A stretch of 64,000 bases of DNA. It comes from Echinometra lucunter (lineage: Eukaryota > Echinodermata > Echinoidea > Camarodonta > Echinometridae). Below are positions 22,492 through 63,354 of the stretch, in pieces. Location of the stretch: NCBI GenBank assembly GCA_029962745.1, contig CM057167.1, positions 17,481,704-17,545,703 of the forward strand, read 5' to 3'. Position numbers and translations under genes: made by a program. A model generated the notes under the pieces. That model did no database searches. It saw only the letters and a program-made list of their open reading frames with translations, and was not told the DNA's origin. Position 1 is the stretch's first letter. Each line of letters begins with the position of its first letter.

Positions 22492-25400
22492 AATGAAATG
22501 AACCCAGCCCCGACCCTCATGTAACCTAATAATACATATAATTAATATTGAAAGATTTGCAGAAAGAGAAAAAAAAAATCAAGATATCATTGTTGCACCC
22601 CTAACATATTTTACATTAAGCTTCTACATACAATGAAAGAAAAAGTACATTGACATATACACCCACTCACACACACTTACACCCCCGCAACCAACACACT
22701 CACACATATACACATACATAAACAAACATTCATACAAATATGTTCATGAACATATAATTCTGACATAGAGTAAAAAAAAAAAAAAAAAAAAAAAATCTGC
22801 AAATCAGATTGACACAAGAGAAGGGGGAAATGAAAAAAAAAATAGTACAAAATTATCTCACACTCACTGAATCATCAACACTCACACCAAAATTGACACT
22901 CGTACCACACTAGACACATCCTATCTGTTCACATTCAAATCTCTTTTCACCTTCAGTTCATCCCATTTTTGTATATGTAAACTTATCTTACCTGATTTTG
23001 ATGCCAGGCGACTTTCTTCCTCTATACAACCCGTAATATATTTCTGTATTTTAATGAAAGAGGGTAACCGGCCTTCAGCTCTTGAATTAAAAATAGCATA
23101 TTTTATAAATAAAATAACAGAATTAACACATTTATTTCTATTAGAATGTCCAGGTAATCCTAAAAATATATCCCTCCAATTCATAGTTCTTAATTCAACT
23201 AAACAAAAATGATCAATACAAAATTGCCACAAAGGCTTAACTTTTATACAGTCCATGAATATATGAAAATATGATTCAGTATGTGTACAACAAAATGAGC
23301 AGTAATTATCCCCCACAAAACCAAATCTCTTCAAATGTTCTTTTGTATATATTGCTCCATGTAAAAGCTTAAACTGAAATTCCCTTTGTTTTCTTATAAG
23401 AGTTGTACTTCTGATATATCCAAATAATTTACAAATTTCTACATCAGTAAAACTAAAACCACTGTGACCATCCTTGAGTGTTAATTTATACAATTCTTGT
23501 AGATTGGTAATGAATAAGTTATAAACTGTTTTTGATTTAATTACCTCAAAATCTGTTTCCTGTCTTCCAATGTTCATACATATCCTAAAGTCTACGAAAT
23601 CAATTTTTTTAAACTTCAACGAACCAGTAAAATTTTTCCAACTTGTTGGTATAGCGTGGGCGATATCTATTATTTGAAGAAGTTGATTTGCAGTAATACC
23701 AAGATTTTGAAAAAACGACACAGGTTTTATGTGTCCATTGTCAAAAATTTGATCCACGCTAAATATTCCTTTCTTAAAAAGATCCTTGTTAAAAATCGTT
23801 TTACCTCTGATACAAATATTTTGATTATTAAATATAATTGGATTAACCTCATCTTCAGAATATCGATATTTCCTCAAGTCTTGCCAAGCCTTCATCATTT
23901 CTGAATAAAATTGGGGTATTTTTATATTTAATTTTGAAGTGTCAAAGTCACATAGAAACAGAAATCTCCCTCCAACTGATCGAAAACAAAAATCAAAATA
24001 CAACCTCCATCCTGCATCCCGTTCTCCATAAAGTAATCGTTTAAGCCACATCAAACGTTCGGAGACTTTACAAACAACTTAAAATTCATCATTTTTAAAC
24101 CTCCTTGTGAGTAATCCTGATACATTATATTTCTCTTTATACGATCTTTTCCTGACCATAAAAATTCAAATGTGATCTTTTCCACTTCCGCATACAACCA
24201 CTGAGGAACCACTATAAGTGACGAAACAAAGTTTAACCTTGACAATGCATATGTTTTCAACAAGTGAATTTTCCCCATAAGTGTGAGATCCCTTTGCTTC
24301 CACCATCCCAAGAGTCTTTTTATTTTACTCAGAATTTCTTTGAAATTCATGTCCTCTTTTATTATAACATTTAGAGAAAAGTAAACACCTAAAATTTTAA
24401 TATGCTGAACAAAATTCCCAAACAACTGTATCTGAGGTCTGTCATTATCCCTACCCATCCACAAAATATTAGTTTTTTCCTTTGTTTATTTTTAGACCAC
24501 TAATTTTCTCGAATTCTTCAAAAAGGTATTGAAGACGTTCTAGAGAGTACGTATTTTTAACAAACAGTGATATATCATCAGCATACAAAATTTGTTTTAA
24601 TTCATGGTTCTCAAATTGAATTCCTTCAACATTTCTGTCTTCCCTTTTTGCCAAAGCCAGTATTTCTATACAGAGCAGAAACAAATATGGGGAGAGGGGA
24701 TCCCCCTGTCTTACTCCTCGTTTTATATTAAAATAACCAGAAGAAAAACCCCCATTCATAACACAACTAGTAATATCTGAGTATAAAACACGGACCAACG
24801 AACAGAATGACTGACCAAATCCAAATAGTTTAAGGATTTCAAAAAGAAAATCATGTGAAACAGAATCAAAGGCCTTTTCGAAGTCAACTGTAATTAGATA
24901 TCCAATGTTTTCAAAATAAGATTGATATAATATATCATCTATTAATCTTACACCATCTCCAATGTTCCTATCTTTTACATAACCAACTTGATCATTATGA
25001 ATAATCTCATTCAGTACACTTTTTAATCTTTTCGCTAAAACCTTTGACAATATTTTGTAGTCCACGTTTAAAAGTGTAATTGGTCTAAAGTTTTGGACAT
25101 ATAACGGATCTTTACCCTTCTTTTCCAATAACGTTATCACACCTTGCTTTTGTGAGGTTGTCAATGTACCCCTATCATATGTTTCATTTAAAACATCTAC
25201 CAAAAGTTCCCCCAATAAATTCCAAAACGTATAATAAAAAACTCTACCGTAAAGCCATCATTACCAGGGGTTTTATTAAATTTCATTTCTTTTAAAACAC
25301 TGAAACTTTCATGAATACTTATTCTACCTTCACAAATTTTACAATTTTCTTTACTTAATTGAGGAATGTCATTAAGGAACATAGAATTTTCATTAACATT

Positions 25401-26871
25401 AGCTTCACTCAATGAGTATAAGTTTTCATAATATGATCCAATCTTCTTCAGTATTTCCTTTCTATCCTTAATGATATGTTCATCGTCATCATATAATTCT
25501 TTTATCACACTTTTTCGTTTATTAGACTTCAATAACTGTTCAAAATATTGTGTTTTTTGTTCTCCTTCCTCAAACCAAACTGCCCTTGACCGAATTTTTA
25601 AACCTTGTCGATTGTAATCGTACAACTTGTTCAAATTAGATTTTTTTCATCATTGTCATCAATTATATTTCTCAATGGCTGAGACAAAAGTTGACTTTCT
25701 AATTCTTCTATTTCCTTCTCCAATTTTCTAATTTCAACTTTCCTATGCTTTGCCTTTTCTTTTGTATAAGTATTAATAAACTGTCTCATTTTCATTTTCA
25801 AAAAATCCCATAACAGTAATTTATCCTTTATCTTTGGAATCCACTCTGCTTTTAATTCAACTACTTTATCTTTAAATATCCTCAAAAATTCTTGATCTAC
25901 GCACAAACTATTATTAAATTTCCAATATGAATTCCCAAAGTAAGGAGCATTTACATAGTTCTGTAATTGAAGCAGTACACCTGAGTGATCGGGTGTAATC
26001 GATGTCAAAATATCACAACAGTTAACTGAATCCTGTAATGCAGAGGAAACAAACCAATAATCCAACCGACTTTGAACAACAGGCCACTTTTGTCTAAATG
26101 TAAATTGTTTTTTAGCTGGATTCTTCTTTCTCCATATATCTACTAAAAATAATCTATCCAGAAGGTCTTCAAACTTTTCATTAAATCTATTTCTAATAAA
26201 CTTTCGAGGCCCCATATAATCCAATTCCCCATTCATTATCATATTAAAATCTCCACCTAAAGTAATTGTATCTCCAGAGCTGTAAAACTTTGAAATACAA
26301 TTTTCCAATTCCTCTAAAAATTCCACTTGCATCTTTTCTTTATCCCTGGTAGGAAAATAGCAATTTACTAGTAAAAAGGTAGATTGTTGATATTCTAATT
26401 TCATTATTATAAACCTTCCATTTTCACCAATACTCACATCTTTCATTTTCATATTCAAATTTGGAGAAATCAAAACTAAAACACCTTTACTATGATTTGT
26501 TCCATGACTAAACAATAACTGACCATTCCACTCTGACTTCCATTTTTCTTCCACCTCTACCGTACTATATGTTTCCTGTAAAAATACTAAGTTACTGCTT
26601 TTATCTCTGCAAAATTCAAAAATGTTTTTCCTTTTAATTCTATCTCTTAACCCTCTGACATTTAAAGTTAATAAAGTTAAATATGACCTGCTACCGAAGT
26701 ATCGACGCCCTATCCCGAAAAATATGCAAATGAAACTGACCAAGTGAGAGATCTAAATGTGAACAGGCATCACTACGCTCCAAACAATCACTCACTTTCA
26801 CTACACCACAGGAAAGACACACTCATTCATACCAGACACGCGCATTCACCCAACACAAAATGTATGCCAAT
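22298..26871 (-). mobile_element. LINE retrotransposon, L1/Tx1-like, reverse strand
   Basis: A non-LTR retrotransposon reading right to left. Its 3' end is a poly(A), seen as nine T at 22298-22306, preceded by an AATAAA-like signal in a ~600 bp 3' UTR that contains CA repeats and A runs (22307-22920). A 9-bp word, AGCAACACA, occurs at 22289-22297 next to the poly(T) and again at 26872-26880 just beyond the ORF2 start. That is where a target-site duplication would be, and it would make this a 5'-truncated insertion lacking ORF1. The 9-mer match is suggestive only. Copy A holds the same 3' end (about 9740-9983) before the gap. The L1/Tx1 assignment rests on the reverse transcriptase and endonuclease motifs. 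Confidence 0.85.
22921..26743 (-). pseudogene. LINE ORF2: endonuclease and reverse transcriptase, frameshifted
   Basis: Five consecutive open segments (26743-25631, 25634-25197, 25215-24469, 24464-24051, 24054-22921) make up one ORF2. The first carries an APE-type endonuclease: LTLNVRGLRD, FLQET, GGDFNM, SRLDYWFVS and ITPDHSG. The second ends at TPGNDGF. The third is the reverse transcriptase palm: FRPITLLNVDYKIL, VDFEKAFDSV, GVRQGDPLSP and the catalytic YADD. The last contains a C-terminal CX2CX8HX4C knuckle (around CSFC...HIFMDC) typical of L1/Tx1-type LINEs. Segment breaks sit at or near A/T homopolymers (A7 near 25645, T6 near 25240, A6 near 24474) plus one near 24060. They are small indels, either decay or sequencing error. 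The catalytic residues I can see are intact. Confidence 0.9.
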
Positions 26872-38089: not shown

Positions 38090-38610
38090 GGGATCGGATT
38101 TATTGTTTAGTTCTTCCAGCATAGAGAATACGTATGAAGACACGAAGACTCAAACTCAGTTAAAGTATTAAGTTAACATTTATTCAGTTGAAGATCAAAA
38201 ATATGAACAGAAGTATACAGTAAGTCTGATGGTGACTGTACTCTGATGATGTCTTGAATGTAGTCTGAAGTATTCTGGAGTATTCTGGTTCTCTGATTGG
38301 AGTCCTGAAGTGAACCCCTTTTATAATGGGTAAACCCTCTATTGGGAGTTGGTCAACCCTGAGCTCTTGACCAAAGGCCTTGTGTACGTCATAACTTTTA
38401 CTCAGTATTGGGGGAGTGGGTCAGTTATCTGGAAGGAGTGATGTAGTGAATAAGAAGACCATAAAGTAACCAGTGTGTCATAGCTTTAGTTGGAAGATAC
38501 TTTCTGAAGAAGAATGAAGTTTGTAAACATTTGACTTCCTGTTTTGCTTCCTGTATAGAAGTATTGCTTAAGTATTGATGAATTATAGAAAATGTGAAAT
38601 TGGTCTTATT
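38090..38610. repeat. LTR-like direct repeat, right copy, interrupted at its end
   Basis: Matches 35327-35850 with few differences (for example a 4-bp length change in the TATATATTG box). It stops at TTGGTCTTATT where the first Helentron-like element begins. Its last nine bases, ATCACATAA, reappear at 46729-46737. This gives an exact empty-site/filled-site comparison for the 8.1 kb insertion. Confidence 0.7.
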
Positions 38611-41044
38611 TTGGAAAGAAAGCTCTGTGGACTCGTGATTGCCATTGCTTGTTGTTTAATTCTGCTCGAAGGCAGCGATACAAACGTGATGCCATTTGAA
38701 TACGATTCATAATATAACCAACAGATATACAGAATACCAGAACAATCTGCCTTATTTGCTAGAATGCAGGGATACCAACTCCGTGCCATTTGGATACAAT
38801 ATTAAGGCACACTCATACAATAAACAGTGATATGTCTCGCAGTTTTTAACACTTCTTTTAACATAAGGCAGTATTCAAACTCGACACTTTGTCTTGTGTC
38901 AAACTCATGAGAACACGGTCAGTCATGTAAGTTAGTGTTTTAATACCGTTTTCACAACATAGTAACTGGACTAATTTCAAGTATGCAAAAATATTCGGTT
39001 ACCATTACTTATTACCGAACAAGTACAGAGTAAACACTTTTATGCCTTTTGAGTGGCATAAGGACTGGTATAAATATTTATCGAGTGATTGCTGGGCGGT
39101 GGTAACTCGACCCAGCAAGCAGTTTACCTGCCAACAGGATGGTACCTAGAGTGGCAATTCGCATCTTTCTTGTGATGCTAATGCCCCCAAAACACCTTCC
39201 ACCTAACTTCCCACCATTACGTGATTTGAAGCATCATATCGTTTTTAGCACTCTACACAATTTAGATCAAACTACTGAGCGTGACTCATCACGATGATGA
39301 GCGAGCTGGGAAAGGATAACCTGGCCCAGCAAGCGGTTTACCTGCCAATGGGATGGTAACTAGAGGGGCAGGCGAGCTACCCCATCCGGCCAAACTTCCC
39401 ACCATTACATGATTTAGGGCAATCTATATCAATCTACTGAGCATGACCCGTCAAAATGATGAACGAGCAGGGCGGTGGTAACCTGACCCAGCAATCAGTT
39501 CACCTGCCAGACCGATGGTAACTACGGTGGCAGGCAGGCTGCCCCATCCTACCCAACCTCCCGCCGTTACGTGAACTGGTATCATCTGGGGCAAACTAGA
39601 TAAATATACTAAGCATGGCGCATCGGGATGATGAGCCAGCTGGACAATAGTAACTTGACCTGCAAACGGTTTACCTGCCTACAGGATAGTAACTACAGTG
39701 GCAGGCAAACTGCCCCATCCTACACAAACTCTGGCCATTACACGATTTGGAGCAATCCAGATAAATCCAGATAAATGTACCACACATGGGCAATGGTAAC
39801 TTGACCCCGCAAACACTTCACCAGCCAACTGAATGGTAACTAGATTGGCAAGTGAGCTGGGCGATGATAACTCGACCCGCAGATGGTTTACCTGCCGACC
39901 GCATGGTAACTACAGTGGCAGGCAAGCTGCCCCATCCTACCCAACCTCCCGCCGTTACGTGAACTGGTATCATCTGGGGCAACTATATAAATATATTAAG
40001 CGTGGCTCACCGGGATGATGAGCAAGCTGGGCAATAGTAACTTGACCTGCAAACGGTTTACCTGCCTACAGGATGGTAACTACAGTGGCAGGCAAACTGC
40101 CCCATCCTACACAAACTCTGGCCATTACACGATTTGGAGCAATCCAGATAAATTAACCAAACATGGCTCATCAGAATGATGAGCGAGTTGGGCAATGGTA
40201 ACTTGACCCCACAAACGCTTCACCAGCCAACGGGATGGTAACTAGATTGGCAAGTGAGCTGGGCGATGATAACTCGACCCGCAAATGGTTTACCTGCCAA
40301 CGGCATGGTAACTACAGTGACAGGCAAGCTGCCCCATCCTACCCAACCTCCCGCCGTTACGTGAACTGGTATCATCTGGGGCAACTATATAAATATACTA
40401 AGCGTGGCTCATCGGGATGATGAGCAAGCTGGGCAATGGTAACTTGACCTTCAAACGGTTTACCTGCCTACAGGATGGTAACTACAGTGGCAGGCAAACT
40501 GCCCCATCCTACACAAACTCTGGCCATTACACGATTTGGAGCAATCCAGAGAAATGTACTGAACATGGGTCATCAATATAACGAACGAGAAATCCCGCCA
40601 TTATGCGATTCAGACTGATCTAGATACATTAACCAACTTGGCTCATCTTAATGATGAGCGGGCTTCTTCATGTTGCCCAGCCTGTGACCATGCAACTGCA
40701 TGTGTATTCATATATATCCATCATATCCCACCACAAAAATTGTATAAGATAGCTATCACTTGCATATGACATTCAATGTATACATTGTAATCTGGGCTGG
40801 GTGGGAGGGAATAAAATTTGTTGCCTTCGGGCAGAAAAACGTGTGAAGCAATGACGTCTTGGGCGAAAGCGCGCTTTCAGCACAATTGTTATGGTAACCT
40901 CTTGTTGACCTCACTGTTTACCTTTTGTGACTTTGTTCGTTATTTGAATATTGATGGTCTAGTGATAATGTGTTCCTATATCTGACTGCGTCCAGCCAAG
41001 CTTCTCCCAAAATATTAATGATCACTTATTGTGATCATGTTATT
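38611..41044. mobile_element. Helentron-like (HINE-type) element 1, carrying a satellite array
   Basis: A 2434 bp element shares its first 593 bp with 41045-41637 and its last 234 bp with 46495-46728, with equal lengths and no difference I could see. The left end TTTTGGAAAGAAAGCTCTGTGGAC is mirrored by a subterminal TTTTGGGAGAAGCTTGGCTGGAC about 32 bp inside the right end. That right end finishes with a hairpin (ATGATCAC-ttatt-GTGATCAT, 41019-41039) and TTATT. Asymmetric terminal repeats, a 3' hairpin, insertion at T-rich sites without a clear duplication, and an internal satellite are the features described for Helentrons/Helitron2 and their non-autonomous HINE relatives. No Rep/helicase is encoded. 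Confidence 0.6.
39110..40640. repeat. Internal satellite of the Helentron-like element, 402-bp higher-order unit
   Basis: Repeated blocks contain TGGTAACTTGACC, GGTTTACCTGCC, a GGATGGTAACTACAGTGG box and GGCAAACTGCCCCATCC. Sub-blocks of ~70-200 bp are organised into a ~402 bp higher-order period; the same 61-codon frame recurs at 39833 and 40235. The frames are by-products of the repeat. Element 2 holds only the first truncated unit. Confidence 0.85.
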
Positions 41045-41639
41045 TTGGAAAGAAAGCTCTGTGGACTCGTGATTGCCATTGCTTGTTGTTTAATTCTGCT
41101 CGAAGGCAGCGATACAAACGTGATGCCATTTGAATACGATTCATAATATAACCAACAGATATACAGAATACCAGAACAATCTGCCTTATTTGCTAGAATG
41201 CAGGGATACCAACTCCGTGCCATTTGGATACAATATTAAGGCACACTCATACAATAAACAGTGATATGTCTCGCAGTTTTTAACACTTCTTTTAACATAA
41301 GGCAGTATTCAAACTCGACACTTTGTCTTGTGTCAAACTCATGAGAACACGGTCAGTCATGTAAGTTAGTGTTTTAATACCGTTTTCACAACATAGTAAC
41401 TGGACTAATTTCAAGTATGCAAAAATATTCGGTTACCATTACTTATTACCGAACAAGTACAGAGTAAACACTTTTATGCCTTTTGAGTGGCATAAGGACT
41501 GGTATAAATATTTATCGAGTGATTGCTGGGCGGTGGTAACTCGACCCAGCAAGCAGTTTACCTGCCAACAGGATGGTACCTAGAGTGGCAATTCGCATCT
41601 TTCTTGTGATGCTAATGCCCCCAAAACACCTTCCACCCA

Positions 41640-47815: not shown

Positions 47816-49089
47816 ATGGAAGGTACTACAATCCCAACCTTCATGACAGAAGTTACTCCAGATTACCAATGGAGCAAGAAGGAACTTTTTGTGTTTGAAG
47901 ATTACAACCAACGAATTATCATAGCCGCCATCATGTGCCTCGTCATCCTCGTTGGCACTATCGGCAACACTTTGGTCATCATCGCCGTCGTCGTGTCCCG
48001 TAAACTCCGATCGTCAACCAACTGGTTTATCGTCCACCTTGGATGTGCTGATCTCCTCTCTTGCATCACCATCCCGTTCAATGTTGTTGCTATGCTGAGC
48101 CGTGACGGCTGGCCTCTTCCAAGTTGGATCTGTGCCACAAGTTCGGCCCTGTTCTACATCTGTCTGGGTGCCAGCGTCATGACCCTGGCCCTCATAGCCT
48201 ACAACCGCTGGTACCTGCTGACACAACCGATGGCACACTATCAGAAGCTCTACAAAACAGAGAACATATGTTTCATGTTACTGAGCGCATGGATTTACCC
48301 CTCTGTTTTGGTCCTCGTACCATACTTTGCTGGGATGGGAAAATTAGGATATTCCTATAAGTACAAGTCATGTTCGCAAGATACTTCGCTTCCCTTGTCA
48401 GACTTGTACAGTCTCATGGCGGGAGCTTGTGTGATCATCCCTATTTTCATTGCCATAGTAGTCATCTACGTGCGGATTTACTTCTTTGTTTCCAGGCAAA
48501 ACAAAAAGATGGAGCAAAAGAAGTCAGGAGTGTCAAAAACGTGCCTCGTGAAAGATGATAATGTGGAGATGAGCTCTTTGAAGATTTCCACAGCAAAACA
48601 AGCACCACATCAGAGACACCAAGCCATGCAACAGATGGTACACTCCAATCAGCCGACAGTACCGAAGCGACTGCAGAAGATATCACTCCCAGGACTAAAA
48701 CCATACCAAGAAACACAGCTGACGCAAGGTCTGTGACTCAGTCAATGTCTTTGGGTAGGTCATCGAAATTCCCAAGAGTTCTCAACCAAAATCCTAGAAG
48801 CACAGTGCCACCGCGCGTGAATCGATACCATGTCACTGTCACCAAGCGTCTGGCCATTGTGGTCCTAGCCTTCTTCATCTGTATGCTTCCGTTTGGGATC
48901 AGTGTTGTCGTTCCTCCGAGTGATCCAGGTATTCCCTGGACTGTACTCCTGATGACCATCAACAGCTGTCTCAACCCTCTGATTTACGCCAGGACAATGC
49001 CGGGGTTCCGCAAGGTTATGTGGGCCATCATTCGCTGTCGCCTTCAAGAGATTCCTGAGCCGATCGCATGCATTCGTCGCCTACGTTAA
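47816..49089 (+). CDS. Class A (rhodopsin-family) GPCR, single exon, one frameshift
   Basis: From ATG at 47816 one frame encodes TM1 (IMCLVILVGTIGNTLVIIAV, residues ~38-60), TM2 with the LGCADLL motif, TM3 ending AYNRW, TM4, and TM5 (CVIIPIFIAIVVIYVRIYFF), with Cys before TM3 and in loop 2 (KSCSQD). The frame drifts off in intracellular loop 3 and stops at 48736. TM6 (VVLAFFICMLPFGIS) and TM7 (SCLNPLIYAR) lie in another frame, open from about 48575 to the TAA at 49089. Both frames read through the Ser/Thr-rich loop, so a single indel lies between about 48553 and 48640. NRW replaces DRY and CMLP replaces CWLP, as in melatonin-receptor-like and other orphan invertebrate receptors; the ligand is unknown. 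Assembly error, allele or pseudogene are all possible. Confidence 0.85.
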
Positions 49090-52287: not shown

Positions 52288-53175
52288 CAGTGACACCCCC
52301 TAAACGTCAACACTCGCTATACGTCAACATGTCCCCTTTCTTTCTGAAAAAACGTGCACAGCTTTGTAGCTCTGTGTGCATTCACGGCCGCACGTCTGTA
52401 AAAAGATCCGTTCATTTTCAGAGATTCCTCCAACCCGTACCAAAAACGACATCATAGTTGAAAAAAAATGCTCATATAAAATCAATGATACATTGAACAC
52501 TTTGTTTCATATGTGCATAGAGAGGGATAATTACTGGTTTAGATCAGCCCATGAGAGAGCAGTAGTTGGTCCCAGGTGGATTTTAAGGGGACTTTATTAG
52601 TGCGGCAAAAAGCCTTACAACCACCGGAGCTTTGACCAAGGTTTTGTTAGTCTAAGTTTCAGCCCCTCTACCGGGAGAAAAAAATACTGAAAAACACCCC
52701 TTCATATTTCCGGCAAGTAAAGAATAATGTATGAACTTGTGAAGAGAACAGTTTGAAGTGTGCCATTACTAGCATTTTTTTTTCTTCATTTTTATCAAAT
52801 TTCATTTTTAACACTGGAGCCTATGGGGATACAGGCGTGCTACCTCACGTCTCCGTGTCCATACGACTTTGTATGTATACCGCCAGCTGTCGAGGGAAAA
52901 AGAAATCATTGAATTTTCTTCTTTTACAAAATAAGTTACACGTACCACTACACGCACAGCTAGTTAGCTATAGTAATAGTAACAGTAATAGTAATAGTAA
53001 TAGTAATAGTAATAGTAACAGTAATAGTAATAGTAATAGTAACAGTAATAGTAATAGTAATAGTAATAGTAATAGTAATAGTAACAGTAATAGTAATAGT
53101 AATAGTAACAGTAATAGTAATAGATGAGAGACATGCTGACTTTTGGAGGCGTGTTGACGTTTAGGATTGTCACAG
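52288..53175. mobile_element. Terminal-inverted-repeat element containing a hexanucleotide array
   Basis: The left end (52288-52336, CAGTGACACC..CTAAACGTCAACAC...GTCAACATGTC) returns inverted at 53127-53175 (GACATGCTGAC...GTGTTGACGTTTAGG..TGTCACAG). The ~49-bp ends are imperfect. The interior has no transposase; it holds AT-rich unique sequence and the (AGTAAY)n array. No clear target duplication at the borders, so boundaries may be off by a few bases. Confidence 0.55.
52970..53125. repeat. (AGTAAY)n hexanucleotide array
   Basis: About 25 copies of AGTAAT with AGTAAC interspersed. Because the unit is a multiple of three, every frame stays open and gives Ser-Asn, Tyr or Leu repeats; these are not genes. 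It lies next to the right terminal inverted repeat. Confidence 0.95.
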
Positions 53176-58542: not shown

Positions 58543-61500
58543 TTTTATTCATTTCAAATTTTTACCCAGAGTAGCCTGTTCAGTTTAATACAGAAAATTA
58601 CATGAAACACAGAATTTATATACAATTAAAATGAAATAGAAAAACATAAAAGAAAGTTACTGGTCTTCCACAGGACTCTGCATTATACAAATGCAAATAT
58701 AAATACACTTCATGAACACAATCATAACATTATCTTTAAAATATTACAAGTTAATACACAACATTTAATCATATCAAAAGAGAGAGAGAGACGGTGGGAG
58801 ATGTTGAGAGAAAAGGGAAAAGGGGGTGAAGATGATAATGAGAGCAGGATAAGAACAGAATAAAAGAGGAGAAAGGTGAAAAAAAGAAGATTTAGAAATA
58901 AGGGGAGGGAGAAAGAGAGTGAGACAGAGGGAGAAAAATGTTTAGAGAACATTAAAAGCAATAAATAGACTGTCTCATAAAATGCGAGATATACATACAA
59001 AGTTAGTTACCAATCTTAATTATGTACGCATATCATATAAAAGTCAATTAAGGTAAAGAACAAAATCAGAGAGCATGATGTGTAATATGGAACTGTGCAT
59101 GTGGGTCATTGATTGCTTCGTACTAGTATAGGTTTTCCCGGTCAATTTCATACTTTTTCCATTCCAATTCATGAACGTGCATTCAATTTCACGCAACGCA
59201 CGCCCGCGAAGATATTCGGGCTTTCAAATTCAGAATCCGATCGATCAATTTCATGTATGGGCGCTCTTATTTCCTTTCCGTAAAATCAAAATCACGCATG
59301 TGCGTTCAATTTCCAAATGCCAGCATTGCGTTTGCTACTTGTGCATTCAAATTCACGCAGTAGTCACGATGACCCTGTTTGGGGCGTTCAATTTCATTTT
59401 CAGGCCATCAATTTCCTGCTTCGTGCATTCAGTTTAGTGGAGAAGATCAAAAGAGGACTATGAAGGGGAGAGGGGGACCAGCATTGGTTGTTTCTGATAA
59501 ACGAGCACGCTCTGAAAAAGGATTAGTCAAAATAACTATTGTGTTGGTGCATATTATCCGACCAAAATTTTGGTGAAGATTGACCAATATGATGGTCATA
59601 ATTACCAATGAAATTGTTTGTTGAAAATTTAATGTACCAAAATTTTGGTGGATTTTGACCAATTTTTTGGTCAGACACATATTCACCAACGCATTGGTTA
59701 TTTTGACCAATCCCTTTTTAGAATGTACATAATCCACCCGCACACCCCTCACCCCTAACACACACACGAAAAAAAAAATCCTATTTTCGTAGGCTTTTAT
59801 ATTGTATGCTTATTCTTTTTTTAAGGTTCTATATTGTTCTGAATTTGTATCCCCTGACAATGATATCCATAATTACCATAGATGATGTGAATACACAAAG
59901 ATAGGAATTGAGAAAACTCTGATGAGAGTCATAGTTTTGAGTTTCATATTTTCGACCTTTATTTACTAGATCGTCTTCAGGTACTGAGGTAAAACTGAAC
60001 AAGACCTGTTTATATATAATTTTGGATAAATGCACCTTTTTTTCAGTTTCACCTCAGTTCCTGAAGATGATCTACTTAAAGGTCGAAAATTTGAAACTCA
60101 GCACTATGACTCTCATTGGAGTTTTCTTCCTATCTTTGCATATTGACAATGATAATCATGTCCTTATATGTTCATGTATACTTTAATATAGGTTTTCCCG
60201 GTCAATTTCATACTTTTTTCATTCCAATTCATGAACGTGCATTCAATTTCACGCAACGCACGCCCCGCGAAGACATTCGGGCTTTCAAATTCCGAATCCG
60301 ATCGATCAATTTCATTTATGGGCGCTCATATTCTCTTTCCGTAAATCAAAATCACGCATGAGCGTTCAATTTCCAAATGCGAGCATTGTATTTCCTACTT
60401 GCGCATTCAAATTCAACTCGTAGTCACAATGACGCTGTTTGGGGAGTTCAATTTCATTTTCAGGCGATCAATTTCCTACTTCGTGCACTCAATTTAGTGG
60501 AGAAGATAAAAAGGGGGTTATGAGCATGATGAGGGGGAGAGCCGGACGAGCGTTGGTTGTTTCTGATAAACGAGCACACTCCGAAAAAGGATTAGTCAAA
60601 ATATTGAGGTAAAACAGAACAAGAACTGTTTTTGTATACACACTGATATAAGAAGGAATCAAAATGTTCAGTTTTACCTACAATTTCATAAGATGATCTA
60701 ATCAAAGGTCGAAAACGTGAAACTCAACACTATCATAACTATCACTCTCATTGAAGTTTTCTACCAATCTTTGTATATTTACAATGATATCATGTCCTTA
60801 TATGCTCATGTATACTTCAATACTTTAACAGCATAACGACATAATTTCTAACTTGCACTCCTTGATGACGCCACCCATAGAAAGACAAAATCACAACACT
60901 AACCACACAATGCGTCAATTAAACAACCGAATGACAAACAACATGATCTAAAAATATCTCATGTGGAAGCCTAGATAACAGCAATATGAAATGTTTATAT
61001 ATAATTTCCATGTTACCAGTTTCAATGGAAGCATTTATGGCATAAACCTAAAATAGTGGACCTAAGCATGATAACATTATGGCAAATGTCTTGCCAAAGA
61101 AGCCCAATTTATTCCAAACTAAGTGAAAAACACCCACAATGACCCCAAGCTAACTAAATGCAATGAATCTTTTAAATTGAATGCACTTATTTGGAACTTG
61201 GTTGCCTTTTCACGAATATGAATGACCAAGGAGATTCGGTCGCCGGCTTGAAATGAATTTGATTGCCCATTTATCAAAAAGCATGCTCCTACTTTGAATT
61301 TGAATGACCCAAATGAACAATCGATTGCTCGGATAGTGAATCTGAATGACCCAATTTGAATTTGAAAGCTGCTTCAGAGGTGCGAGCGTGAAATGCGGGA
61401 AATTGAACGCTCGGAATATGAACTTGAATGACAAAATCATGAAATTGACCGGGAAAACCTATACTTTAACAACATAACGACATTTCTAACTTATACTCCT

Positions 61501-63354
61501 TGATGACACCACCCATAAAAAGGCAACACCACAACACTAACCACACAATGCGTCAATTAAAAAAAACCAACTGACAAACAACATAATCTCAAAATCTCTC
61601 ATGTGGAAGCCTAAATAAACAGCAATATGAAATTTTTATAATTTTCATGTTACCAGTTTCAACGGAAGCATTTATGGCATAAACCTAAAATATTGGACCT
61701 AAGCATGATAACATTATGGCAAATGTCTTTACAAAGAAGCCCAATTTATTCAAAACTAAGTGAAATTACACCTACATTGACCCCAAGCTAACAAAAATGC
61801 AACGATTCTTTAAAATTGAATCACTTATTTGGAACTTGATTGCCTTTTCACGAATATGAATGACCAAGGAGATTCGGTCGCCGGCTTGAAATGAATTCGA
61901 TTGCCTATTTATCAAAAAGCATGCTCCTACTTTGAATTTGAATGACGCAAATGAACAATTGATTGCTCGGATAGTGAATCTGAATGACCGAATTTGAATT
62001 TGAAAGCCGCTTCAGAGCTGCGAGCGTGAAATGCGGGAAATTGAATGCTCGGAATATGAACTTGAATGACAAAATCATGAAATTGACAAGGAAAACCTAT
62101 AGATAAAAATAGCATCTAGTTTACAGAGTAAAAGTGTACTTCGAATGCGAAAAATAGGGGTGTTTTTTAAAGGCCAATTTGTACCCGTTTTGTGCCAAAT
62201 AGGGGTAAAAATGGCTGAAAATGTACTTGAAACACCACGAAATAGGAAATAGATTGCCGAACGATCATGGTTACATCTTTAAATATAGAGTGACAACAGC
62301 GGGCTAGACAGTTTTGTGGTAATTATTCAATGATTCATGATGGGAATTGCAAGCTCTCTAAACTGACTGTGAGTCCCGTACATAGAACTTTCTCAATTCA
62401 CCCCATAAGGTATTATAAGCTTTGATTTTTGCATCATTTCCTTTGATTGTATTCTTCTCCTCTGCTGTATGACAGCCGCGTTCATACTGTATTTCGTTTA
62501 TTTGATTCGATTTCTTCACATGCTTTCTATAACTTTCTATTGATACTGACTTCCAGTTTCCTTTACAGTTTCCTTGATTAACGTGATCGCAATGATTTTA
62601 TCAAGTTTGGAAATTATAAAAGCCCCATAAAAGGTGATATAGGTGTAGGACATTATCAAGACAAAACTGAGTATAATTTGACTTACCCTTCATTCAGGTT
62701 ACTATAGCTCCTTCTACGCTTGAAGAAATATGCAGCAACGATTATGACAATTAGCACTACCACAGAAAGAGAAACTGATAAACCAATTATCAATTTTGGA
62801 ATCTCCTTTTCTGTAATATAAAGTTTGACAGGGATAGGAATTGTTATCAACAACAACAAAAAAAACTAAAGTCTGAAATTGCGTATAAACTGATAACTGT
62901 CAATATTACCCGCCCTGTTCTGAAGATATATCGAACCACATGAGGATTATACTCAGAAAAATGTGTAATTCTGAATTATCATAAGTGTTTTGAAAGCGTT
63001 GAAAAATAGAAAACCCGCAAGAGGTTTTTTTTCACCTCGTACCAATGTAACCATTTCCTTCTTATACTGCAAGAAATGCTGAAGAATGGTATTGCTGCAT
63101 GTTGATGAGTAATAATGGAAAAATGGCCCGTCTTCATATCATCTAGCTTTCATTGTCTGACATGGAACTATTAGGAAGAATACAATAAAATCTGCAATAG
63201 CTCAGATAATCTGAGAGGTCTGTATGATTAAGCGACTTTTAACACATTTATGAGTTTAATATTATGTGAATCGCCATGAAATTCACCTGTTTCAACTGGT
63301 CCGAAAGTTCCTGAGGAAACCGAGCCGATGTCATTGTATGCTCTGAATGAATAA
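53531..63354 (-). CDS. Receptor-type protein tyrosine phosphatase, 3' portion of the gene
   Basis: Eight exons read right to left: 63354-63287, 62810-62687, 57973-57875, 57109-57028, 56594-56504, 55944-55733, 55213-55088, 54685-54531 and 53666-53531 (nine with the fibronectin exon). All have AG/GT borders, and each junction's codon phase matches the next. The product is the end of a fibronectin III domain, one membrane span, a basic juxtamembrane stretch and a catalytic domain with [24 protein letters not shown] and [10 protein letters not shown]. The enzyme removes phosphate from tyrosine at the inner face of the plasma membrane. Fibronectin repeats plus this domain resemble R3-type or LAR-like receptors. 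The last part of the domain (Q-loop) and any second domain lie left of 53531 and were not found; the 5' exons lie beyond the window. Confidence 0.92.
54290..54515 (+). mobile_element. tRNA-derived SINE in a phosphatase intron
   Basis: A B box (GGGTTCGAGCC, about 54346-54356) lies downstream of an A-box-like stretch in GGTGAAGACTCTTGCC. A body follows (GACTACATCCTTGGACAAGG...) and an A-rich end near 54510-54515. It stops only about 15 bp from the donor of exon 54531-54685, in opposite orientation to the gene. Borders approximate. Confidence 0.6.
54531..54685 (-). CDS. Phosphatase exon: WPD loop
   Basis: Acceptor CCTTTCCAG, donor CTGCAG|GTAATT, 155 bp. Encodes [19 protein letters not shown], with the general-acid Asp in the WPD loop, then an amphipathic stretch ([12 protein letters not shown]) and ends in VVVHC just at the catalytic cysteine, completed by the next exon. 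Confidence 0.93.
55088..55213 (-). CDS. Phosphatase exon: CHQYWP segment
   Basis: Acceptor GTCTTATAG, donor TTCAAG|GTGTGT, 126 bp, phase 0 at both ends. Encodes [12 protein letters not shown], matching the conserved KC.QYWP block, then a beta-rich stretch ending in [10 protein letters not shown]. Confidence 0.9.
55312..55465. mobile_element. Near-perfect hairpin MITE in a phosphatase intron
   Basis: Arms of about 70 bp start TTGCATAAAACTTACC and end GTAAGTTTTATGCAA. They pair almost completely around a short loop (about 12 bases, GGCTGTTGAGCA). Flanks GGGGCC and GGGACC are related but not an exact duplication. No coding potential. An RNA copy would fold into one long hairpin. Confidence 0.85.
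55733..55944 (-). CDS. Phosphatase exon: substrate-recognition segment
   Basis: Acceptor TTTCTTTCTCAG, donor GGAAAG|GTGAAG, 212 bp. Completes NILPYDHSRVKL and carries [24 protein letters not shown] and [19 protein letters not shown]. The first Asn-Ala-Ser-Tyr block is the phosphotyrosine-recognition loop family motif. The last codon fits phase 0 to the next exon. Confidence 0.93.
56504..56594 (-). CDS. Phosphatase exon: KNRY segment
   Basis: Acceptor CATGTAG, donor GCCCT|GTAAGA, 91 bp. Encodes [19 protein letters not shown] then [11 protein letters not shown], the conserved KNRY motif at the start of the catalytic fold. Ends phase 1, completed to Tyr by the first bases of the next exon. Confidence 0.9.
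57028..57109 (-). CDS. Phosphatase exon: N-terminal helix of the catalytic domain
   Basis: Acceptor CTGACTTAG, donor TTCGAG|GTAACT, 82 bp. Encodes [15 protein letters not shown] and YKFAEEFE, the wedge-like helical lead into the catalytic domain. A poly-G run sits just beyond the donor. Confidence 0.88.
57875..57973 (-). CDS. Phosphatase exon: juxtamembrane region
   Basis: Acceptor TTTTACAG, 99 bp. The phase carried over from the transmembrane exon gives [17 protein letters not shown] then a basic stretch ending MHKKNLSK. The donor AAA|GTTTGT is weak. Because the exon length is a multiple of three and the neighbours are phase-compatible without it, it could be an alternatively used cassette. 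Confidence 0.7.
58510..58546. repeat. (ATTT)n microsatellite
   Basis: Nine uninterrupted TATT units. It follows the GGGGTGTTTTT-rich left part of the composite cluster. Confidence 0.95.
59127..59440 (+). repeat. Phased-motif arm L1 (TCAAWTTC every ~20.5 bp)
   Basis: Begins TATAGGTTTTCCCGGTCAA. TCAATTTC/TCAAATTC-like words start at 59142, 59163, 59183, 59224, 59245, 59286, 59306, 59347, 59388, 59408 and 59429. All steps are 20, 21 or 41 bp, so every word sits on one ~20.5 bp register while the bases between differ. Near-identical to arm L2 at 60187. Confidence 0.9.
59525..59715. repeat. Cluster of ACCAA...TTGGT palindromic words
   Basis: Seven ACCAA words start at 59561, 59583, 59604, 59636, 59658, 59685 and 59706. 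Several are completed to palindromes such as ACCAAAATTTTGGT (59561 and 59636). Spacing is 21-32 bp, less regular than in the arms. It lies between arms L1 and L2 but is absent after L2. Confidence 0.7.
59893..60143. mobile_element. Foldback element between the phased arms
   Basis: About 105 bp (AAAGATAGGAATTGAGAAAACTC...GAGGTAAAACTGAA) reappears inverted at 60043-60143 (TTCAGTTTCACCTCAG...GGAGTTTTCTTCC). Both arms share a TTCGACCTTTA / AAAGGTCGAAAA box. A partial copy of the right arm recurs at 60600-60790 after arm L2. Confidence 0.75.
60187..60500 (+). repeat. Phased-motif arm L2
   Basis: Copy of arm L1, displaced by 1060 bp. TCAAWTTC-like words start at 60202, 60223, 60243, 60285, 60306, 60346, 60366, 60407, 60448, 60468 and 60489, giving steps of 20-21 or 40-42 bp. 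One-base indels relative to L1 (extra T near 60217, extra C near 60266, lost A near 60345) hardly disturb the register. Confidence 0.9.
60600..60790. mobile_element. Partial foldback copy (right arm)
   Basis: Repeats the right arm of the 59893-60143 foldback (CAAAGGTCGAAAACGTGAAACTC...TTGAAGTTTTCT) with a short GAGGTAAAACAGAAC remnant of the left arm. Confidence 0.65.
61170..61463 (-). repeat. Phased-motif arm R1 (GAAWTTGA every ~20.5 bp)
   Basis: Inverted relative of the L arms, ending GGGAAAACCTATA. Words like GAATTTGA start at 61173, 61194, 61214, 61255, 61296, 61338, 61358, 61399, 61420 and 61441: steps of 20-21 or 41-42 bp. Outside the terminal ~25 bp and the motif positions the sequence differs from the L arms. 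It is followed by a second copy of the element interior (61462-61810). Confidence 0.9.
61810..62101 (-). repeat. Phased-motif arm R2
   Basis: Second copy of arm R1, about 638 bp further on. GAAWTTGA-like words start at 61852, 61893, 61934, 61976, 61996, 62037, 62058 and 62079, reproducing the same gaps as R1. Ends in AAGGAAAACCTATA, one substitution pair away from the R1 end. Confidence 0.9.
62687..62810 (-). CDS. Phosphatase exon: transmembrane segment
   Basis: Acceptor ATATTACAG, donor GAAGG|GTAAGT, 124 bp. Encodes KEIPK, then about 23 hydrophobic residues ([18 protein letters not shown] plus VAAYFF), then the stop-transfer KRRR. Its phase-1 start joins the fibronectin exon exactly. Confidence 0.92.
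63287..63354 (-). CDS. Phosphatase exon: end of a fibronectin type III domain
   Basis: Acceptor AGTTATTCATTC preceded by TTTACAG, donor ACAG|GTGAAT, 68 bp. Encodes [19 protein letters not shown], the Y.FR..A.N..G F-strand/G-strand pattern of fibronectin III domains, ending in VET just outside the membrane span. The earlier part of the domain lies further right; I found no exon for it within the window. Confidence 0.85.

Follow-up and report, generated by a model that had tools for sequence, protein, structure and literature searches.

The locus and its parts

The window, i.e., the whole 64-kb stretch of sea-urchin DNA analysed here, contains at 59127–62101 an inverted-repeat element with two left and two right arms. 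Elsewhere it holds a non-LTR retrotransposon (22921–26743, minus strand), whose endonuclease, reverse transcriptase and zf-RVT matches lie in separate ORFs; a hexanucleotide microsatellite of about 26 copies of ATAGTA (52970–53123); and a rhodopsin-type GPCR ORF of 306 aa (47816–48736, plus strand). The ten best matches of the latter are longer (343–448 aa), and the named proteins among them, from Lytechinus and Strongylocentrotus, are 61–69% identical to it over 72–93% of the query. A complex tandem array at 39080–40640 combines a 402-bp unit present twice at 95%, a 162-bp unit present twice and a 70-bp unit, with recurring words such as GGTAACT, TTACCTGCC and CCCCATCC; no inverted pair of at least 30 bp occurs in 38500–41500, and the array was not returned by the 20.5-bp register scan described below. 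The parts of the inverted-repeat locus are as follows:

59127..59436, plus strand: left arm L1 of the outer copy, 15 slots, 10 on-register words matching at least 7/8 letters
59127..60186, plus strand: left part of the outer copy (L1 unit, 1060 bp), closing with CTTTAA at 60181–60186
60181..60186, plus strand: CTTTAA to the left of the inner copy, one of the two repeats in its probable 6-bp target-site duplication
60187..60496, plus strand: left arm L2 of the inner copy, 15 slots, 12 on-register words
60187..61463, no strand assigned: inner element copy TATAGG...CCTATA, 1277 bp, no long ORF
60813..60828, plus strand: TACTTCAATACTTTAA, a near-duplicate in tandem in the middle of the inner copy, interpreted as a scar that an insertion at the same site left on excision
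61173..61463, minus strand: right arm R1 of the inner copy, 14 slots counted from 61463, 9 on-register GAAWTTGA words
61464..61469, plus strand: CTTTAA to the right of the inner copy, the second repeat in that probable duplication
61470..62101, no strand assigned: right part of the outer copy beyond the duplication, terminating in CCTATA
61812..62101, minus strand: right arm R2 of the outer copy, 14 slots counted from 62101, 10 on-register words

The plus strand of both left arms (L1 from 59127, L2 from 60187) begins with TATAGGTTTTCC, as does the minus strand of both right arms (R1 ending at 61463, R2 at 62101); these inverted tips are thus present at all four arm ends, which show the termini TATAGG..CCTATA, i.e., TA..TA, in every case. 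The left and right tips are complementary without gaps over 46–48 bp at 83–89%. The arms span about 290–310 bp and their repeated words are inverted between left and right, in keeping with the long inverted arms and short internal direct repeats of foldback-type DNA transposons as a structural class. A coding or RNA function was rejected, as the longest ORF by length within 59127–62101 is 106 aa and a search of the whole window against Rfam at the gathering score gave no match. Taken together, the element is probably a non-coding foldback-type DNA transposon.

The two copies are related: L1 and L2 are identical at 556 of 614 ungapped positions, and R1 and R2 at 593 of 633, with 1-bp indels between the inner and outer copies. 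The 468 gap columns of the former alignment mostly reflect one long insert in L1, and the short matches across that insert are partly chance. The L1 unit also contains hairpin-like inverted repeats (59511–59722 and 59911–60127) that are mostly absent from L2 and are possibly further small inserts. The inner copy, 60187–61463, is bordered on both sides by CTTTAA. Among 200000 random position pairs, 100 gave an exact 6-bp match and 1491 a match of any length from 4 to 10 bp, the second being the fairer figure, since the length of the duplication was chosen afterwards. Once the inner copy is removed together with one CTTTAA, the rejoined flanks form a site that agrees with the inner copy's own centre at 100 of 110 ungapped positions. 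The largest internal gap in this comparison corresponds to 8 additional bases of the inner copy, forming the tandem near-duplicate TACTTCAA-TACTTTAA; we read it as a putative scar left by an earlier insertion and excision at the homologous site, comprising either a 6-bp duplication plus a leftover TA or an 8-bp duplication. For the inner copy itself, a 6-bp duplication (CTTTAA) is favoured because the ends are then symmetric, while an 8-bp one (TACTTTAA, with ends TATAGG..CCTA) is possible. No target-site duplication can be recognised around the outer copy, which is bordered by TACTAG on the left and GATAAA on the right, so that a duplication is seen in one copy of the two.

A nested insertion is well supported by these observations: the inner copy was probably inserted into the middle of an outer copy of the same family. 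The initial annotation had described a single inverted-repeat element with two left and two right arms. The four arms stand, but their layout is probably the product of nesting, and doubled arms as a design were rejected in view of the CTTTAA flanks, the matching centres and the relatedness of the copies.

A polar array in register at 20.5 bp

Of the exact copies of the word TCAAWTTC or its complement GAAWTTGA in the 64-kb window, 26 fall inside the element and 11 outside it. Words matching at least 7/8 letters number 47 in the first 330 bp of the arms (11 in L1, 13 in L2, 11 in R1 and 12 in R2), against a background, taken over the window's first 59 kb, of 0.5–0.6 per strand and 330 bp. All 47 share the orientation of their own arm, none of the four arms holding an opposite-oriented word over this distance. 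On the register lie 41 of them (10 in L1, 12 in L2, 9 in R1 and 10 in R2), and the pitch fitted from the tips is 20.47, 20.45, 20.60 and 20.55 bp, respectively (standard errors 0.02–0.04), with a largest residual of 1.07 bp over about 290 bp. At each of the four ends the first word stands at offset 15 bp, counted from the tip, and left and right arms alike have their next words at 36, 56/57, 97/98 and 118/119. Slots that lack a word of at least 7/8 are numbers 3, 6, 9, 11 and 14 in L1; 3, 9 and 11 in L2; 3, 6, 8, 10 and 12 in R1; and 3, 6, 8 and 10 in R2. The six remaining near-words sit 6 bp beside a slot, at offset 267 in L1 and L2 and at offsets 42 and 104 in R1 and R2; one of them, at 61990, is exact.

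When equal numbers of words were placed at random, the observed periodicity was matched in 0 (L1), 0 (L2), 7 (R1) and 2 (R2) of 2000 placements. Further, a scan of the whole window in 330-bp stretches for any 7-mer keeping a 20.5-bp register (score above 3.2, with 4 or more occurrences spaced by no less than 12 bp and 3 or more different letters) gave no stretches other than those overlapping the four arms. Chance clustering of the words was rejected on these two grounds. The array, its pitch, its polarity and the identical tips are features of the DNA as it stands. The claim that the words recur in a register was hence borne out as to periodicity and orientation, and fell short where it said "without exception", given the six off-register near-words; the 41 on-register words give 37 intervals rather than the 39 that had been counted. 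Autocorrelation, which had been proposed as a check, yielded its main peaks at 41, 82 and 123 in L1 and at 62, 82, 103 and 124 in the right arms, with smaller excesses at 20–21. The further claim that all words face one side of the helix holds at 10.25 bp per turn, where 20.5 bp makes two turns. DNA in solution has 10.5 bp per turn, at which words spaced by 20.5 bp drift by about 17 degrees per step; the same-face reading therefore assumes that the DNA is protein-bound or slightly overwound.

By blastn at E 0.01, no copy was found in the rest of the 64-kb window outside 59127–62101. The tip pattern matched nothing in viral contigs and seven stretches in prokaryote genome contigs, and three consecutive phased words were found in 42 stretches of viral contigs. 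We scored these 49 contig loci and the window for slots on both strands: among the best 15 of 100 rows, the window ranks first, with 10 slots on the plus and 8 on the minus strand at a pitch of 20.5, followed by two loci at a pitch of 21.0 bp that have 7 and 6 slots and are presumably unrelated 21-bp repeats. The evolutionary comparisons below rest on the window's two copies, inner and outer.

Words, spacers and the origin of the arms

The profile of the 41 on-register units approximates TNGGGCATTCAAWTTCA, and the motif extends past the 8-bp word, 36 of these units carrying C at −3 and 29 carrying A at +8. Units of the same arm are pairwise identical at 0.82–0.88 of word sites and 0.37–0.42 of spacer sites (chance 0.26–0.27), a comparison that favours the word, as units were picked by word score and the 7/8 threshold by itself makes word columns appear conserved while the spacer columns are unselected. 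The initial annotation had the bases between the words as variable: they are far more so than the words, and they nevertheless stay above chance. In the left–right comparison of 14 paired slots, made with no choice by word quality, with empty slots included and with positions hand-set within about 1 bp, word identity is 0.74–0.75 and spacer identity 0.46–0.49. Past the tip, L2 and R2 are identical at 60 of 80 word sites versus 47 of 120 spacer sites (one-sided p about 5e-7, treating sites as independent).

This pairing leaves out one left slot, the right arm being one unit shorter. Across nine slot shifts, word identity is indeed best with the right arm one slot shorter (0.71–0.72, versus 0.46–0.60 at the other eight), as if the arms differed by one whole 20.5-bp unit. 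Spacer identity at that same shift is 0.36–0.41 and is higher at shifts −3, +3 and +4; homology of left and right spacers beyond the tip is thus putative.

Between the two copies, the aligned count gives changes at 3 of 96 word sites versus 21 of 204 other sites for L1/L2 (one-sided p 0.023), and at 3 of 80 versus 8 of 201 for R1/R2 (p 0.62); pooled, p is 0.055, or 0.44 without CpG sites. An ungapped tally over slots holding a word (same base at 93 of 96 word and 127 of 144 spacer sites for L1/L2, and at 77 of 80 and 108 of 120 for R1/R2) was replaced by this weaker count because 1-bp indels misalign the spacers. Words are thus not clearly better kept than spacers between copies. Selection at the motif only, for which the initial annotation had named an alignment of copies as the check, did not clearly pass it, and the outcome speaks against that claim in its strongest form. 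Evidence for a putative motif-only constraint comes instead from older divergence, within arrays and between left and right arms.

These figures bear directly on the rival that survives best, namely that the arms are a decayed minisatellite. Under this reading they were amplified from a 41-bp unit (2 × 20.5), so that the register records history rather than function; we regard this as improbable, though it merits being taken seriously, and the same holds for its corollary that the words are merely the slowest-changing or most lately homogenised part of such a repeat. In its favour are the L1 autocorrelation, strongest at 41 and its multiples; the odd left–right slot shifts, which mostly give higher spacer identity than the even ones (the exception being +4, four slots) and hint at an older 41-bp double unit; the above-chance identity of spacers within arrays; and the lack of a clear word excess between the copies. 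However, within the same arrays the adjoining spacers are far less conserved than the words, and the register runs for about 290 bp without cumulative drift, despite the 1-bp indels that separate the copies. Probably, an origin of the arms by amplification is true in part.

A possible function of the arms, and comparison with known systems

We favour, as the likelier account though by no means a secure one, the view that the locus comprises two nested foldback copies whose arms are arrays of slots for a sequence-specific DNA-binding protein, likely a transposase or its partner acting in trans. Each arm of about 300 bp would present a polar array of 14–15 slots, 20.5 bp apart, of which about 9–12 hold a good word. 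The slots would most likely serve an absent trans-acting transposase or its partner protein, the element presumably being moved in trans, as its longest ORF is so short. Subunits might then occupy one side of the DNA in head-to-tail order, coating each arm, and the coated arms would bring both ends together for excision and insertion, with selection acting on the word and on whole-unit spacing. Identical DNA-binding subunits arranged in a chain would require just such a polar array, anchored to the tips and repeated every two turns. Precedents are the Galileo THAP domain and TnsB, both treated below, and the phased left-end repeats of Hermes. Further, 13 of the 16 mismatches in the 41 on-register words hit the four central letters (the copies not being independent), which points to base contacts at the word edges rather than to A-tract bending alone. 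Protein binding, the identity of the protein, synapsis of the ends and cut-and-paste mobility are what we infer from these patterns.

Several observations count against this account: (i) the outer copy lacks a target-site duplication; (ii) six near-words lie off the register; (iii) words are not significantly better kept between copies; (iv) left–right spacer identity is not best where the words are best; (v) the element's longest ORF reaches 106 aa, so that the binding protein is putative; (vi) the 7/8 threshold by itself favours the word columns; (vii) blastn showed no copy in the window beyond this locus. In addition, for Hermes PMC10368747 describes right-end repeats as unbound and far subterminal sites as unlikely to bind extra transposase in cells, which likewise weighs against it; the left-end subterminal repeats are described there as requiring exact phasing. 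The phased protein-binding scaffold that had been proposed fares best as a binding array within an inverted-repeat mobile element, and less well as regards motif-only conservation between copies.

Two further rivals concern what the words might do. One makes them binding sites for a host protein, a transcription or chromatin factor, whose role would be to regulate or silence the element and not to mobilise it. We deem this rather unlikely. The array evidence is equally compatible with it, and the arms are CpG-rich, with observed/expected ratios of 0.95–1.55 (59127–59456, 60187–60516, 61134–61463 and 61772–62101) versus 0.47–0.48 in two other stretches of the element and 0.66 in the part of the window that precedes it; yet the array keeps a fixed distance of 15 bp from each of the four tips and occurs in both arms, as expected of end-recognition sites.

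The least probable rival makes the words a structural DNA signal: A-tracts (AAATT/AATTT) recurring in phase would curve the arms or set the positions of nucleosomes. The core of the word is an A/T tract, a pitch of 10.25 bp per turn is nearer to that of nucleosomal than of free DNA, A/T power at 20–21 bp exceeds every one of 500 shuffles in three arms (L1, L2 and R1) and 497 of them in R2, and AA/TT/AT power at about 10.2 bp beats 495 of 500 in L2, 471 in L1, 436 in R1 and 443 in R2; but the words are polar, the conserved TC before the tract, C after it and C at −3 are not required for bending, several one-mismatch words (TCATATTC, TCAAGTTC and TCAGATTC) break the tract and keep the outer letters (whereas TCAATTTA/T do the reverse), and A/T power at 10–10.7 bp is ordinary in three arms, being reached by 130 (L1), 113 (R1) and 133 (R2) of 500 shuffles; in L2 it is reached by 33 of 500.

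Returning to the slot array for a transposase or its partner, we tentatively advance, as a possibility well short of an even chance, that the ends act as a helical ruler: 14–15 polar slots, one every two turns along about 290 bp, in an array whose length would change by whole units and on which a transposase, perhaps of the IS3EU type, would form a one-sided filament before synapsis. An array with fixed two-turn pitch, polarity and empty slots bears on the role of long repetitive foldback arms. The prediction is that changes of spacing by whole turns would be tolerated, and that changes by half turns would impair recognition of the ends. A search for an autonomous partner in sea urchins could also start from the tips and the duplication.

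Among known systems, the TU foldback elements of a sea urchin have long arms of short tandem repeats, approximately 15 bp each in an outer arm domain, and an 8-bp duplication. The sea-urchin host is common to both; the repeats of TU differ in length from the pitch of 20.45–20.60 bp seen here, and its duplication is 8 bp against 6 (or 8) bp. Foldback transposons of a sea urchin go back to Lieberman et al. 1983, as cited in PMC4079207, in whose description Tetris is a foldback-type element with repeated subterminal motifs.

The Mutator superfamily offers close analogs. Muta1 of Aedes aegypti is described in PMC5225508 as a type-2 foldback element of this superfamily with a known and active transposase; like our element, it has long arms with a repeated short motif, and it has non-autonomous derivatives. 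It differs in that its motif and spacer together span 15–16 bp and its duplications 8–9 bp. Its nine copies of a 12-bp repeat with 3–4-bp spacers make the initial annotation's statement that no named family has this design too strong. Likewise, Tm1 of Meloidogyne (Phantom/Mutator) is portrayed in PMC3169594 as having arms of many short direct repeats, variable in number; its repeats are 13–15 bp, its duplications 9 bp and its 7-bp tips asymmetric. As to the 8–10-bp duplication expected of Mutator/MULE foldback elements, the symmetric ends of the inner copy favour 6 bp, with 8 bp possible.

In the account of PMC3688188, Galileo of Drosophila (P superfamily) has long foldback-like arms with several THAP-domain sites, and its THAP domain binds these repeated sites; the three identified ones lie at about 70, 561–577 and 701–718 bp and form no helical array. 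The ends of Tn7-like/CAST elements are similar to the present ones in that sites of about two turns come after a short terminal sequence: TnsB binds 22-bp sites behind an 8-bp terminal sequence, and PMC9371665 describes the first two of these sites as overlapping by 1 bp. These elements differ in being bacterial and in having four unevenly spaced sites per end, against 14–15 regular slots here. None of the literature matches listed, in the portions available, describes a eukaryotic transposon end this long and regular.

Finally, IS3EU/GingerRoot elements have TA..TA termini and usually 6-bp duplications, with TAYGG..CCRTA termini in a set of fungal families (PMC10045372, PMC12730594). The TATAGG..CCTATA termini and the probable 6-bp duplication CTTTAA resemble these, whereas our element has no transposase and phased arrays go unmentioned for IS3EU/GingerRoot in the relevant parts of both papers. 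The affinity, suggested by the ends and duplication of one insertion with the transposase absent, is a lead and not a membership. Foldback arms built of repeated motifs are thus already known, and it is the 20.5-bp pitch that sets the present arms apart from the systems compared.
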